Shown: piece after piece, positions 3,288 through 23,315 of the stretch
Layout of the letters: every line of letters starts with the position of its first letter
Numbering within the stretch: position 1 is the first letter of the stretch
Source of the DNA: Luteitalea sp.
Lineage (GTDB): Bacteria > Acidobacteriota > Vicinamibacteria > Vicinamibacterales > Vicinamibacteraceae
Assembly (NCBI GenBank): GCA_009377605.1
Contig: WHTT01000056.1
Span: 9,159 to 41,936 of the forward strand
Direction: 5' to 3'
Length of the DNA: 32,778 bases
Notes under the pieces: model-generated
What the model was told of the DNA's origin: nothing
The model's input: only the letters and a program-made list of their open reading frames with translations
The model's database searches: none
Position numbers and translations under genes: made by a program

Positions 3288-3389
3288 CCCTTCGACTACG
3301 CTCGGGGTGACCCTGAGCCTGTCGAAGGGTCAGGGCATTCTCCCTGACACTGGCTCGCCGTTAGGCGAGCGGAAGGCGAGTCGAATGGA
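3288..3389. repeat. palindromic dispersed repeat next to ssrA (copy 1)
   Basis: It contains three consecutive hairpins: CCCTTCGAC/GTCGAAGGG (3288-3296 with 3321-3329), TCAGGG/CCCTGA (3330-3347) and GCTCGCC/GGCGAGC (3353-3370). Long blocks are shared with 8346-8555, including GGGTCAGGGCATTCTCCCTG and a 25-bp block that begins GCGAGCGGAAGGCGAGTCGA. The shared block reaches 3389, four bases into the tmRNA gene. The rest of the gap 3175-3287 shows nothing recognisable. Confidence 0.8.
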
Positions 3390-3738
3390 GGCGGCGGGAG
3401 TCGAACCCGCGTCCGAAGGCACATCCCCGCAGGAATCTACAATGCTTATCCCCTCTTGATTGTCTCGTCGCTGGTGCGAAAAGAGAGGCGAGAAACCACC
3501 AACGACCAGCCGCGGTGTGTCTCACGACCGCGCGCCGTGGCGCCGCGCGATCGCCAGCCCGCTAAATGGCGCTCATCCCCGGACCGCGGGCGATTCCAGG
3601 GTGAGCGTCGCTACGAGTTAGGCAGCGAGTGCAAGTTGCGTATCCGCACTTACATTGTGTTCCACTAGTTTTACGAGCGAAGTGGAGCTCGGCATGCATC
3701 CCGCGAATCCATACCCCCGTCGAAGCCGTGACGCCCCC
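3386..3738 (-). ncRNA. ssrA: transfer-messenger RNA (tmRNA)
   Basis: This 353-nt RNA rescues stalled ribosomes. The 5' end GGGGGCG pairs with the 3' end CGCCUCC to give a seven-pair acceptor stem (one G-U), followed by discriminator A at 3386; the CCA is not encoded. The T arm is GCGGG-TTCGACT-CCCGC. The 5' region carries the conserved GGCTTCGACGGGGGTATGG and GCATGCCGAG blocks. The tag frame is at 3618-3662 and ends LALAA, the usual protease-recognition tail. The middle region, presumably pseudoknots, was not folded in detail. A palindromic repeat abuts the 3' end, and the soluble lytic transglycosylase gene is divergent. Confidence 0.95.
3618..3662 (-). CDS. tmRNA-encoded proteolysis tag reading frame
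   Basis: Aligning the TAGTG just upstream with the E. coli TAGTC-GCA junction puts the resume codon at GAA (3662-3660). The frame then reads EHNVSADTQLALAA and stops at TAA (3620-3618). The tag is 14 aa with the usual LALAA C-terminus, long compared with the 10-residue E. coli tag. Confidence 0.8.
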   Translation of the reverse strand, partial: EHNVSADTQLALAA

Positions 3739-8345: not shown

Positions 8346-8555
8346 ACCCTTCGACTCGCTTCGCTCGCTTACCCCTCGACTGCGCTCGGGGTGACCCTGA
8401 GCCTGTCGCCTTTCGACGTCGCTCAAGGCGACCCCGAGCGTCGTCGAGGGGTCGAAGGGTCAGGGCATTCTCCCTGAAACTGGCTCCCTGAAACTGGCTT
8501 GCCATGAGCGAGCCTTCGGCTCGCCGCGAGGCGAGCGGAAGGCGAGTCGAATGGA
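8346..8555. repeat. palindromic dispersed repeat (copy 2), nested hairpins
   Basis: ACCCTTCGAC at 8346-8355 pairs with GTCGAAGGGT at 8451-8460, and ACCCCTCGAC at 8371-8380 pairs with GTCGAGGGGT at about 8443-8452, so the region can form one long nested hairpin. A 14-bp direct duplication (TCCCTGAAACTGGC at 8471-8484 and 8485-8498) follows. Blocks match the copy at 3288-3389, including the terminal GCGAGCGGAAGGCGAGTCGA. The preceding 8156-8345 between the divergent barrel and ABC genes holds nothing recognisable apart from their presumed promoters. Confidence 0.8.
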
Positions 8556-8613
8556 AGGTTATACTGGCCTGACCGGTCACTTTCACGTGGCCTTGGAGGT
8601 TTACTCGTCGGCA

Positions 8614-10395
8614 ATGTCCTCACCGTCTGCCCGCCTGTGGCCGTACATCCAACGTCACCGGCGCGACGTGCTGCGCGGGCTTGGTTGCGCAATCGGCGCG
8701 ACGGCCGTTTCCCTGGTCAGCCCGTGGATCTTGAAGTACGCGGTGGACGACCTGGCGCAGGGGGTCACCGCCGGCAAGTTGCGCCTCTACGCCGCGCTGC
8801 TCCTCGCCGTGGCGCTGGTTGGAGGCATCTTCCGCTTCCTGATGCGACGCATCGTCATCGGTGTGTCACGCGTCATCGAGTACGACCTGCGCAACGACTT
8901 CTTCGCGCACTTCGAACGCTGGGCGATGGCCGACTTCCAGCGCCATCGGACCGGCGACCTGATGTCGCGCGCGACCAACGATCTCAGCGCCGTGCGCATG
9001 ATGGTGGGGCCTGCCGTCATGTACGCTGCGTCGACGGTCTTTCTGTTCGTCGTCGCACTGGCGCTGATGTTTTCCTTGAGCGTCAAGCTGACGCTCATCG
9101 CGCTCATCCCGCTGCCATTCGTGAGCCTGGCGGTCAAGTACTTCGGTGATGCCATCCATCGGCGGTTCGAGCAAATCCAGGAGCAGCTCGCCGATATCAG
9201 CGCGATCGTCCAGGAGGCGCTGGCAGGGGTGCGCGTCGTCCGTGCCTACCGCCAAGAGCCTCACGAGCTCAGGCGGTTCCGAGAGGCAAACGACGAGTAC
9301 GTCGCACGTAACCGCCGGCTCGTGCAGCTTCAAGGGTTGCTCTACCCGAGCCTGACGTTCTTTCTTGGCATCGCCAGCCTGCTCGTCCTGTGGGTGGGAA
9401 GCCGGGAAGTCATTGCTGGACGACTCTCGATTGGGGAGTTCGTGGCATTCATGACGTATCTGACGATGCTGAGCTGGCCGATGATGGCCTTCGGTTGGGT
9501 GACGAACCTGCTGCAGCGCGGCACGGCGTCCTGGAAGCGCATGCTGGACCTACTCGACGTAACGCCCACGATCACGGACCAGGTGGGAGAGCCGCTCGAA
9601 TCCAACGTCATCCTGCGCGGCGCAATCGCGTTCGACCGGCTCACGTTCGCCTACGACACGGAGCCAGTCCTCGCAGACATCTCCTTCCGTGTGGATCCCG
9701 GTCAGACCGTCGCGGTGGTCGGGCCGACCGGGAGCGGCAAGTCGACGCTCCTGCAGCTCGTTGCCCGGCTGCACGATCCTCCGCCCGGCACGGTGTTCGT
9801 AGACGAGATCGATGTGCGCCGGCTGCCGCTCTTGACACTCCGCAGAGCCATCGGCTTCGTGCCGCAGGAGCCGTTTCTCTTTTCGGACACGCTGGCGGCA
9901 AATATTGCCTTCAGTGCAAGCGGTCCGCCTTCGCTCGGCTCCGCCGAGCTTCGGCGAGACGGGCCCACTGATCGCATTCGCTGGGCCGCGAGCGTCGCAC
10001 GGTTGGACGCGGATGTCGCGCAGTTCCCGCGCGGCTACGACAGCATGGTCGGCGAACGGGGAATCACTTTGTCGGGCGGACAGAAGCAGCGCACGGCCCT
10101 TGCGCGCGCGCTCATGGTCGATCCGCGCATCTTGATCCTGGACGATGCGCTGTCGGCAGTGGACACGTACACGGAAGAAGAAATCCTGCAGCGGTTGCGC
10201 GATGTGAGGCGACAGCGAACGGCGCTCGTTGTATCGCACCGCGTGTCGACGGTGCGTGATGCCGACCTGATCCTCGTGCTGGACCGTGGCCGCATCATCG
10301 AGCGCGGCACTCATACTGATCTCGTCGCGCACGGCGGCGCCTATGCGGAGCTGTATCGGAAGCAGCTTCTCGAGGAGGAGCTGGCAGCCTCTTGA
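8614..10395 (+). CDS. ABC exporter subunit with degenerate Walker B (MdlA-like)
   Basis: The product is 593 aa from the ATG at 8614 (MSSPSARLWPYIQRH). An earlier ATG at 8551 lies inside a repeat and is rejected; GGAGG at 8595-8599 is the likely ribosome site, somewhat far. The first 310 residues are the six-helix exporter membrane domain, the rest the nucleotide-binding domain: Walker A GPTGSGKST (370-378), signature LSGGQKQR (from 486), Walker B ILILDDALSAVD. Asp511 stands where the catalytic Glu should be, as in MdlA and other degenerate-site subunits. It should pair with the next gene as a heterodimer. Residues about 438-448 are encoded by a palindromic repeat. The substrate is unknown. 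Confidence 0.92.
   Translation: MSSPSARLWPYIQRHRRDVLRGLGCAIGATAVSLVSPWILKYAVDDLAQGVTAGKLRLYAALLLAVALVGGIFRFLMRRIVIGVSRVIEYDLRNDFFAHFERWAMADFQRHRTGDLMSRATNDLSAVRMMVGPAVMYAASTVFLFVVALALMFSLSVKLTLIALIPLPFVSLAVKYFGDAIHRRFEQIQEQLADISAIVQEALAGVRVVRAYRQEPHELRRFREANDEYVARNRRLVQLQGLLYPSLTFFLGIASLLVLWVGSREVIAGRLSIGEFVAFMTYLTMLSWPMMAFGWVTNLLQRGTASWKRMLDLLDVTPTITDQVGEPLESNVILRGAIAFDRLTFAYDTEPVLADISFRVDPGQTVAVVGPTGSGKSTLLQLVARLHDPPPGTVFVDEIDVRRLPLLTLRRAIGFVPQEPFLFSDTLAANIAFSASGPPSLGSAELRRDGPTDRIRWAASVARLDADVAQFPRGYDSMVGERGITLSGGQKQRTALARALMVDPRILILDDALSAVDTYTEEEILQRLRDVRRQRTALVVSHRVSTVRDADLILVLDRGRIIERGTHTDLVAHGGAYAELYRKQLLEEELAAS
9926..9956. repeat. palindromic element inside ABC exporter coding sequence
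   Basis: CGCCTTCGCTCGG (9926-9938) and CCGAGCTTCGGCG (9944-9956) form a hairpin with a five-base loop and a three-base internal mismatch. It translates as PPSLGSAELR, in a place where homologous exporters run from NIAFG directly into the helical subdomain. It resembles the larger element in the HAD gene at 22824-22912. Confidence 0.65.
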
Positions 10396-14513: not shown

Positions 14514-14622
14514 GTGAAAAGGGGAGGAAGAAAACGGGGACAGTCCTCGTTTTCGATGTCATGACTTCGCCGACCCGTGCGAAAACGAGGGCTGTCCCCG
14601 TTTTCTTCCTCCCCTTTTTCAC
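14514..14622. repeat. long inverted repeat filling the zapB-zapA gap
   Basis: The left arm (14514-14555) begins GTGAAAAGGGGAGGAAGAAA and the right arm (14580-14622) is its reverse complement with one base difference and one extra base; the 24-base centre is unpaired. Both arms carry ACGGGGACAG(T/C)CCTCG, the core of a widespread dispersed repeat. The element begins at the ZapB-like stop codon and ends one base before the zapA ATG. Confidence 0.9.
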
Positions 14623-18697: not shown

Positions 18698-18767
18698 GTA
18701 GCGCAGGCCTTTAGGCCTGCAGTGGCCTTGTCCGCGTGCTGCTGGCAGGCCTAAAGGCCTGCGCTAC
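18698..18767. repeat. inverted repeat between rpmI and rplT
   Basis: The 23-bp arm at 18698-18720 (beginning GTAGCGCAGGCCTTTAGGCC) has an exact reverse complement at 18745-18767, with a 24-bp loop. Each arm also holds the palindrome GCAGGCCTAAAGGCCTGC. A second copy with two arm mismatches lies at 21874-21953. Confidence 0.92.
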
Positions 18768-21873: not shown

Positions 21874-21953
21874 GTAGCGCGGGCCTTTAGGCCTGCCTGC
21901 GGCCGCACCATTACCATGCCTGTCCGATGGGCAGGCCTGAAGGCCTGCGCTAC
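21874..21953. repeat. inverted repeat, second copy of the rpmI-rplT element
   Basis: The 23-bp arms 21874-21896 (beginning GTAGCGCGGGCCTTTAGGCC) and 21931-21953 pair with two mismatches around a 34-bp loop. They match the copy at 18698-18767 in arm but not in loop sequence. The remainder of the HU-to-tRNA gap (21954-22131) shows nothing recognisable. Confidence 0.9.
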
Positions 21954-22622: not shown

Positions 22623-23315
22623 ATGGTGAACGTCGATGCGCTCGTTCTCGACTACGGCGGCGTGCTCTGTTGCGACCAGCCCGCGACGATCGTCGAGACC
22701 ATGATGCGCTCCGTGTCGGCCACCGCCGAGCGCTGGCACGAGGCGTACTGGCGATACCGTCGTGACTACGACCTTGGGCTTCCGGCCGCGGTGTACTGGG
22801 AACGCGTCCTCCACGATCTCGCGCCGCCTTCGCTCGCCTCCGGCGAGCTTCCCCCCTCCGCTGTCTATTCGGCGAGGCCTCGCCGAAGCTCGCCATTGGC
22901 GAGCGAAGGCGGGGACGATGGGTTCGTCTCGCAGCTCGTCGAGCTGGACGTCCAGTCCTGGCTGGTCTACCGCGAAGAGGTGTGGGAGATCGCACGCAGG
23001 TTCCGAGCGCGCGGGAGACGCGTGGGGATGCTGTCGAACGGCATCCCAGAAGTCATGGCGCGCCTCCGCGCCGAGCGTGCGCTCGACGAATGGTTCGATA
23101 CCGTCGTCGTGTCGTATGAGCTCGGCATCGTGAAGCCGGATCCGGCGATCTACCAGGCGTGTCTGGACCGCCTGAACGTGGCGCCCGCGCGCGCCCTCTT
23201 CGTCGACGATCGCCGCGAGAACGTCGACGTGGCTGCCCAACTCGGCTGGCAGACGCTTCACTTCGCAGGGGAGGATGTGGTGGCACGACTGCGCGCGATG
23301 GTGGACGCGGAGTGA
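22623..23315 (+). CDS. HAD-superfamily hydrolase with repeat-derived insertion
   Basis: The product is 230 aa. The four HAD motifs are visible: VLDYGGVL (nucleophile Asp10, the DxGxV form used by YihX-like and epoxide-hydrolase N-domain-like phosphatases), MLSNG (Ser138), GIVKPDPAIY (Lys171) and ALFVDDRRENVD (Asp195/196). The Gly at the second Asp position does not fit a classical phosphatase acid/base. Residues 68-97 (APPSLASGELPPSAVYSARP and following) come from a palindromic element between the cap helices. The insert is Pro/Ser/Arg-rich and may be a surface loop. The substrate is unknown. The gene is divergent from HU. Confidence 0.85.
   Translation: MVNVDALVLDYGGVLCCDQPATIVETMMRSVSATAERWHEAYWRYRRDYDLGLPAAVYWERVLHDLAPPSLASGELPPSAVYSARPRRSSPLASEGGDDGFVSQLVELDVQSWLVYREEVWEIARRFRARGRRVGMLSNGIPEVMARLRAERALDEWFDTVVVSYELGIVKPDPAIYQACLDRLNVAPARALFVDDRRENVDVAAQLGWQTLHFAGEDVVARLRAMVDAE
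22824..22912. repeat. palindromic element inside HAD coding sequence
   Basis: The arms 22824-22851 and 22885-22912 are reverse complements at 25 of 28 positions (CCGCCTTCGCTCGCC outer part is exact). The centre includes a perfect 14-bp palindrome GGCGAGGCCTCGCC (22871-22884). It lies in the open frame. A related shorter element is at 9926-9956. Confidence 0.9.

Follow-up and report, generated by a model that had tools for sequence, protein, structure and literature searches.

A palindromic insert in a HAD hydrolase gene

The window, by which we mean the whole 32,778-nucleotide stretch analysed here, belongs to the draft assembly GCA_009377605.1 of Luteitalea sp. (G000; 6.79 Mb in 382 contigs). 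It carries a palindromic element in two protein-coding genes and, possibly, beside its tmRNA gene.

22623..23315, plus strand: HAD-IA hydrolase gene, uninterrupted, with both flanks of the insert alignable to homologues
22823..22867, plus strand: first element copy in the HAD gene, long form (E 5.3e-9; the model includes this copy)
22868..22887, strandless: perfect 20-bp palindrome where the two HAD copies meet, read from the sequence
22869..22913, minus strand: second element copy in the HAD gene, inverted (E 2.4e-11; the model includes this copy)
9924..9968, plus strand: single element copy, in frame in an ABC exporter gene at 8551-10395 (E 3.1e-13; the model includes this copy)
3386-3738, minus strand: tmRNA gene
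3344..3380, minus strand: possible degenerate element copy just 3' of the tmRNA CCA (weak, E 0.42)

The HAD open reading frame encodes 230 amino acids and matches the Pfam family Hydrolase (E 1.1e-16). As a sequence-only reading of this DNA had reported, the intact gene contains, in frame, two inverted arms of 28 nt (22824-22851 and 22885-22912; 25 of 28 positions paired, 89% complementary, 33 nt spacing). That reading had also noticed a central palindrome, TTCGGCGAGGCCTCGCCGAA, which is indeed perfect but measures 20 bp rather than 14 bp. With a covariance model, the insert resolved into a 91-nt inverted dimer in which the plus-strand and minus-strand copies listed above meet at this palindrome. 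A 97-nt stretch here has a predicted folding energy of -40.2 kcal/mol, compared with a mean of -23 kcal/mol for shuffled sequences (s.d. 2.86; z = -6.0; none of 200 shuffles equalled it). The left half (22826-22877) resembles a site on another contig of the same assembly (C35:1388-1439) over 52 nt at 88% identity (BLAST E 3.5e-12).

At the protein level, the insert adds residues 67-97 or thereabouts, PPSLASGELPPSAVYSARPRRSSPLASEGG, close to the roughly 30 residues (68-97) assigned to it from the sequence. In a structure prediction based on a three-sequence alignment (mean pLDDT 66), residues 74-115 scored below 50; predicted helices at 55-66 and 101-129 flank the low-confidence region, with a four-residue helix (69-72) between them. 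The insert has added a loop that is probably unstructured. Its earlier placement between cap-domain helices is consistent with the two flanking helices, although a three-sequence model falls short of proving it.

Two related proteins delimit the insert. The orthologue in the sister species, Luteitalea sp. Dino_bin50 (G001; WHTZ01; Vicinamibacterales; also a draft), has 20 residues fewer at this position and near-identical upstream sequence. A homologue from the same order (G014) has 26 residues fewer; its GLDDGM matches up with the GDDGF directly behind the insert, which marks the right edge. A segment like residues 68-97 was found in none of the 25 aligned homologues, a comparison that could have overturned the proposed insertion; three distant homologues among them have longer loops at this position, unrelated in sequence. 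Judged from these comparisons, the HAD segment is an insertion. With the insert excluded, the flanks gave a dN of 0.15 and a dS of 0.62 (NG86) against the same-genus orthologue, and a dN/dS against the sister of approximately 0.24 (NG86) or 0.13 (maximum likelihood); the gene is therefore under selection.

A dispersed repeat family in Vicinamibacterales

The element recurs throughout its own genome, which was the other point on which the earlier reading could have failed. BLAST against the assembly returned 77 matches, and the covariance model (R2), with which 150 of the 11,626 candidates from the first look were scored, returned 84 at E values of up to 10, including 64 with E below 0.01. A hairpin at 9926-9956 in the ABC exporter gene had been flagged as related, and it does belong to the same family: 9924-9968 is the best model match in the window. 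The alignment behind the model contains this copy and both HAD halves, and their matches are not independent of it. A search with a 29-nt pattern and up to three mismatches was too strict and found only five places.

A gap-free alignment of 34 copies spans 45 columns, with a mean identity of 88%. The unit of approximately 45 nt, CCAGCC-TTC-GCTCGCC-loop-GGCGAGC-TAC-GGCTAGG-CAAGCC, is a hairpin with a conserved foot. An exact 29-nt core is common to nine of the 34 copies, and such near-identical dispersed copies suggest recent spread. Paired changes back both stem pairings, CCAGCC with GGCTAGG and GCTCGCC with GGCGAGC. Among 33 distinct copies, 93.9% of the cells were paired and covariation reached 0.114 versus 0.043 in shuffles (0 of 500 as high), with slid controls at 0.032 or less; coarser measures were weaker, with 14 of 500 shuffles as high for double-change pairs and 10 of 500 for pair types. 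The third base pair of the foot was A-U in 20 of these copies, C-G in six, G-C in two, U-G in one and unpaired in four. In a larger set of 99 distinct matches (of 102) from 54 chosen, mostly tRNA-linked loci, covariation was 0.208 versus 0.077 (slid controls at most 0.036), in an alignment that was fitted to the model.

When up to 150 candidates were scored per genome, 48 of the 60 genomes searched, own genome included, had a match at E 0.01. The 74 own-genome matches that are left after exclusion of the ten weakest (E >0.4) include only six inverted pairs, the others being single or in direct order; an inverted second match is also present at some tRNA loci, for example L067, L125 and L133. 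Arrays of TTCCTGA-type 7-mers are associated with the element: they adjoin 15 of the 74 matches versus 26 of 2,000 random places in the same loci. Within the arrays, where a target-site duplication of the MITE type was looked for, the unit sits between TTCC and TGATTCC, and its ends are ambiguous by 2 nt. By eye, the HAD and ABC copies lack such arrays.

We read the HAD insert as two inverted copies of a miniature, REP-like palindrome that is dispersed in Vicinamibacterales, with a probability of roughly 0.8. An integron attC site and a Rho-independent terminator were considered by eye as identities of the element and set aside.

The window holds further repeats. A second, GTAG-tagged palindromic family, GTAGCGCAGGCCTTTAGGCCTGC, forms inverted pairs at 18698-18767 and 21874-21953; members of this family also flank a Y1 transposase gene elsewhere in the genome (G000:C22:23312), an arrangement that resembles a RAYT gene accompanied by its own REPs. 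Inverted repeats at 14517-14618, 8371-8452 and 1351-1468 (39-nt arms at 97%; 32-nt arms at 84%; TTTCCCGATCGGGAA palindromes) look unrelated to the element by eye.

Junctions with tRNA and tmRNA ends

Outside its own genome, the element is often found directly at the end of an RNA gene. In 14 of the 20 best matches from other genomes, the CCA of such a gene (a tRNA in 13 cases, a tmRNA in one) doubles as the first three bases of the element; the remaining six lie away from any RNA gene. Matches that start at a tRNA or tmRNA CCA number six of 30 in the sister species and three of 74 in the own genome, where 0.0002 would be expected. The own genome has 41 distinct tRNA genes, 40 of them with an encoded CCA. 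Four run directly into an element start and, by eye, about four more are followed by a degenerate or 3-nt-shifted version. As 23 of the 34 copies behind the model are of the CCA type, the ranking of its matches is biased towards CCA, but having a CCA is not enough to position a copy at a tRNA.

We also searched for the exact succession of tRNA T-arm, CCA and element start in 396 sampled Acidobacteriota genomes. The pattern was present in 39: 33 of 42 genomes of Vicinamibacterales and six of 354 other Acidobacteriota. A reversed control pattern was found in none of the 396.

In-frame copies in other genes

For the coding analysis, the 74 own-genome matches were assessed with an ad hoc codon-usage score, and host genes were named by Pfam and NCBIfam. 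At least 15 matches lie in frame, in 13 recognisable genes: those for the HAD hydrolase (two copies), the ABC exporter, two 2-oxoacid dehydrogenase E2 subunits (in their linkers), GH95, DUF4175, a histidine kinase (two copies), TssF, TssG, TssH, MurE, an MFS protein and GlnD. Two of the calls are close: L005 was counted through its Pfam match despite a score of -0.03 on one side, and L022 (TssH) despite a score of 0.04 on one side. A match in tssE (C36:7576) was kept out of the coding count; it covers open reading frame residues 8-21 or so and precedes the conserved domain, which begins at residue 40. In total, 58 matches lie in no open reading frame accepted as coding, and one, in an unnamed frame (L097), was left uncounted. 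The coding share of bacterial genomes is usually far above 15 of 74, and so low a share is what the loss of most insertions that hit genes would produce.

Comparison with relatives indicated how these copies changed their hosts. Relative to 6raf_B, the ABC exporter has 12 more residues at the element; TssF has nine and eight more than two relatives, and MurE six more than three relatives. For the HAD, ABC (versus PDB), TssF and MurE genes, the added segment is absent from relatives outside the lineage. The net gains (12; 20-26; 9 or 8; and 6 residues) are unequal to the element length, which implies that flanking bases were also lost or changed. For GH95, set against two relatives of 48% identity, there is no clear net gain, nor is there one in the linker of the second E2 subunit; from these alignments, the two copies may have replaced existing sequence. 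The comparisons with relatives covered the HAD, ABC exporter, TssF, MurE, GH95, second E2 and histidine kinase genes. The histidine kinase insertion is common to both Luteitalea species, with two copies here and one in the sister.

Four of the six frames are open in the consensus unit and five of six in the HAD dimer. The encoded peptides fall into at least three frames, with sequences like PSLASGELRLG-, SPEASEGG- and AFARLRR. In the sister species, seven of 30 matches are in frame in open reading frames with Pfam matches, including those of MutS-family and Omp85-family proteins. That mobile palindromes create protein segments here, as the earlier reading proposed, is supported as far as the segments go, with 15 of the 74 matches in frame; the word mobile draws on dispersal, near-identical copies and shorter orthologues.

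Three observations concern individual hosts. In the sister MutS-family protein (L242, G001:C43:36339), the in-frame copy lies, by eye, shortly before an apparent Walker A loop. A type VI secretion cluster (L087 and L022; G000:C36:2453-9564) has five model matches in approximately 7 kb, with tssF, tssG and tssH hit in frame. Both E2 linkers contain TTCCTGA-type arrays, in frame, as GNQETG-like repeats.

Possible origin and spread of the element

The copies at RNA-gene ends allow an explanation that needs no transposition system. The tRNA hairpin would be a functional 3' trailer, involved in processing or termination, and the dispersed and coding copies would be by-products of recombination that started from the tRNA sites. 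We regard this as possible, though doubtful. It would account for the presence of the element at tRNA-Leu(tag) and tRNA-Arg(cct) in both Luteitalea species, and at tRNA-Ala(cgc) in the sister with a remnant here, and it fits both stem covariation that includes the CCA and the recurrence of the junction across the order. However, roughly 33 of the 41 own-genome tRNA genes lack the element (by eye), the tRNAs that carry it differ between genomes and no T-run was noticed after the copies inspected; the nine copies with an exact core also suggest recent spread.

Mobilisation of the element as an ordinary GTAG REP or REPIN by the genome's own Y1 transposase is unlikely, as judged by gene neighbourhood rather than activity. 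The inverted pairs are as in REPINs, and CTAC, which is GTAG on the other strand, stands beside the inner stem in about 20 of the 34 aligned copies. Yet this motif is neither conserved nor terminal, being internal and variable (GTA/GAA). The own genome does have one uninterrupted Y1_Tnp match, along with one that contains a stop, but the uninterrupted gene is flanked by the different family GTAGCGCAGGCCTTTAGGCCTGC, the one also seen in the window at 18698 and 21874. None of the 20 Y1_Tnp loci examined in five genomes (two loci overlap) carries a convincing element copy; the model gave just two weak matches there, a partial one at E 0.03 and another at E 0.09. Moreover, genomes with 55 and 38 element matches have no Y1_Tnp match at E 0.001.

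That the HAD segment is native coding sequence of its subfamily, palindromic by chance, is highly improbable and was rejected on the homologue alignment: loop length does differ among HAD homologues, but none of the 25 relatives has a similar segment, GDDGF on its 3' side aligns with the G014 edge, its left half recurs on another contig, its fold stands at z -6 and the existence of the repeat family already refutes the idea.

Returning to the reading of the insert as a dispersed REP-like palindrome, the most likely course of its spread can be outlined. Its starting point is a family widespread in the order, one subfamily of which sits at tRNA and tmRNA CCA ends with a foot complementary to CCA. 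A trans-acting activity, apparently not a Y1/RAYT enzyme, would copy single units or inverted pairs and place them next to short CC(A/C/G) motifs matching the foot. Some copies land in genes, as comparison with relatives indicates for HAD, ABC, TssF and MurE and as we infer for the other hosts. They would survive there because most frames are open and encode polar segments rich in Gly, Ser, Pro and Arg; presumably, selection passes only copies that keep the frame and lie in tolerant loops or linkers. The last step, an insert common to two species with a differing copy number, was seen once, in the histidine kinase gene.

IS200/IS605 elements choose their target by pairing between the foot of a hairpin and bases at the point of insertion. 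The likeness of our element to these is one of analogy alone; it has no transposase and no defined ends. We propose a REPIN-like unit that inserts at CCA- or CCC-type sites recognised by pairing: the CCA home site and the covariation would follow because the foot would pair with bases at the insertion point. The idea draws on covariation, and a function of the hairpin as RNA at tRNA ends would produce the same signal. In this analysis, we found no insertion event, no target-site duplication and no mobilising enzyme or transposase. As a tentative extension, 'tRNA-tail palindromes' might form a third REP-like class that is RAYT-independent and has a 3' foot pairing with CC(A/C/G). The CCA of tRNA and tmRNA genes would be its home site and long-term reservoir, and its lineages would repeatedly re-seed dispersed and coding copies.

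Relation to known palindromic elements

The best-known in-frame palindromes are those of intracellular alphaproteobacteria, Rickettsia among them; the Rickettsia palindromic elements (RPEs) were reportedly described by Ogata et al. in 2000 and 2002. The element shares with RPEs its position in frame in unrelated conserved genes and its many copies (84 model matches). The precedent cited in the earlier reading is sound in that RPEs do insert in frame, but it is not confined to Rickettsia. According to passages of PMC2229807, RPEs of 105-146 bp occur in unrelated conserved genes and also in the genes for tmRNA and for M1 RNA (of RNase P), and in-frame palindromes are found in Neisseria and enterobacteria as well; passages of PMC3733652 add Opitutus terrae, Thauera, Xanthomonas and others. 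Compared by description, the present element differs from RPEs in its unit of approximately 45 nt, or inverted pair of 91 nt, and in that its RNA-gene copies begin at the CCA end.

Intragenic GTAG/CGTC REPs and their dimers are a second point of comparison. Portions of Di Nocera et al. 2013 (PMC3733652) describe 20-40 bp hairpins with complementary stem changes, which also form inverted dimers; dimers in frame code for 20-30 residues. Our element is likewise a hairpin with inverted dimers, an in-frame dimer and complementary stem changes. Unlike these REPs, it has no terminal GTAG or CGTC tag, the latter being absent from the consensus on either strand, and in the loci examined it was not associated with a Y1 transposase. 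Among the passages of PMC3733652 examined for tRNA and CCA, none describes a junction of GTAG/CGTC REPs with tRNA gene ends.

For REPINs, sections of a 2011 PLoS Genet. paper (PMC3116915) propose the inverted pair as the mobile unit, with single copies as remnants, and tie REPINs to RAYTs. The HAD dimer is such an inverted pair at short spacing but, as far as gene neighbourhood shows, the element is not tied to a RAYT. A palindrome beside about half of the tRNA genes of an archaeal genome, approximately 10 bp from the gene end, is called specific to that genome in part of its report; our element, by contrast, is bacterial and lies directly at the CCA.

The element is thus placed as a new family among already known in-frame palindromes. 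A literature search returned no in-frame palindrome family in Vicinamibacteria and no REP-like family at tRNA CCA ends, a result that leaves absence from print unproven. The finding brings in-frame palindromes to a soil bacterium from a large-genome lineage of Acidobacteriota and to central genes, including murE, glnD and those for type VI secretion and E2 acyltransferases. The copies run to dozens, and there are a sister species and many relatives in the order to compare, so that one can count how often selfish DNA gives rise to protein segments. The exact junction with tRNA and tmRNA ends suggests that either a rule of target choice or a function of hairpins able to pair with the CCA of precursor tRNAs has gone unrecognised. 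If the notion of 'tRNA-tail palindromes' is true, tRNA gene ends would be a source of new protein loops.
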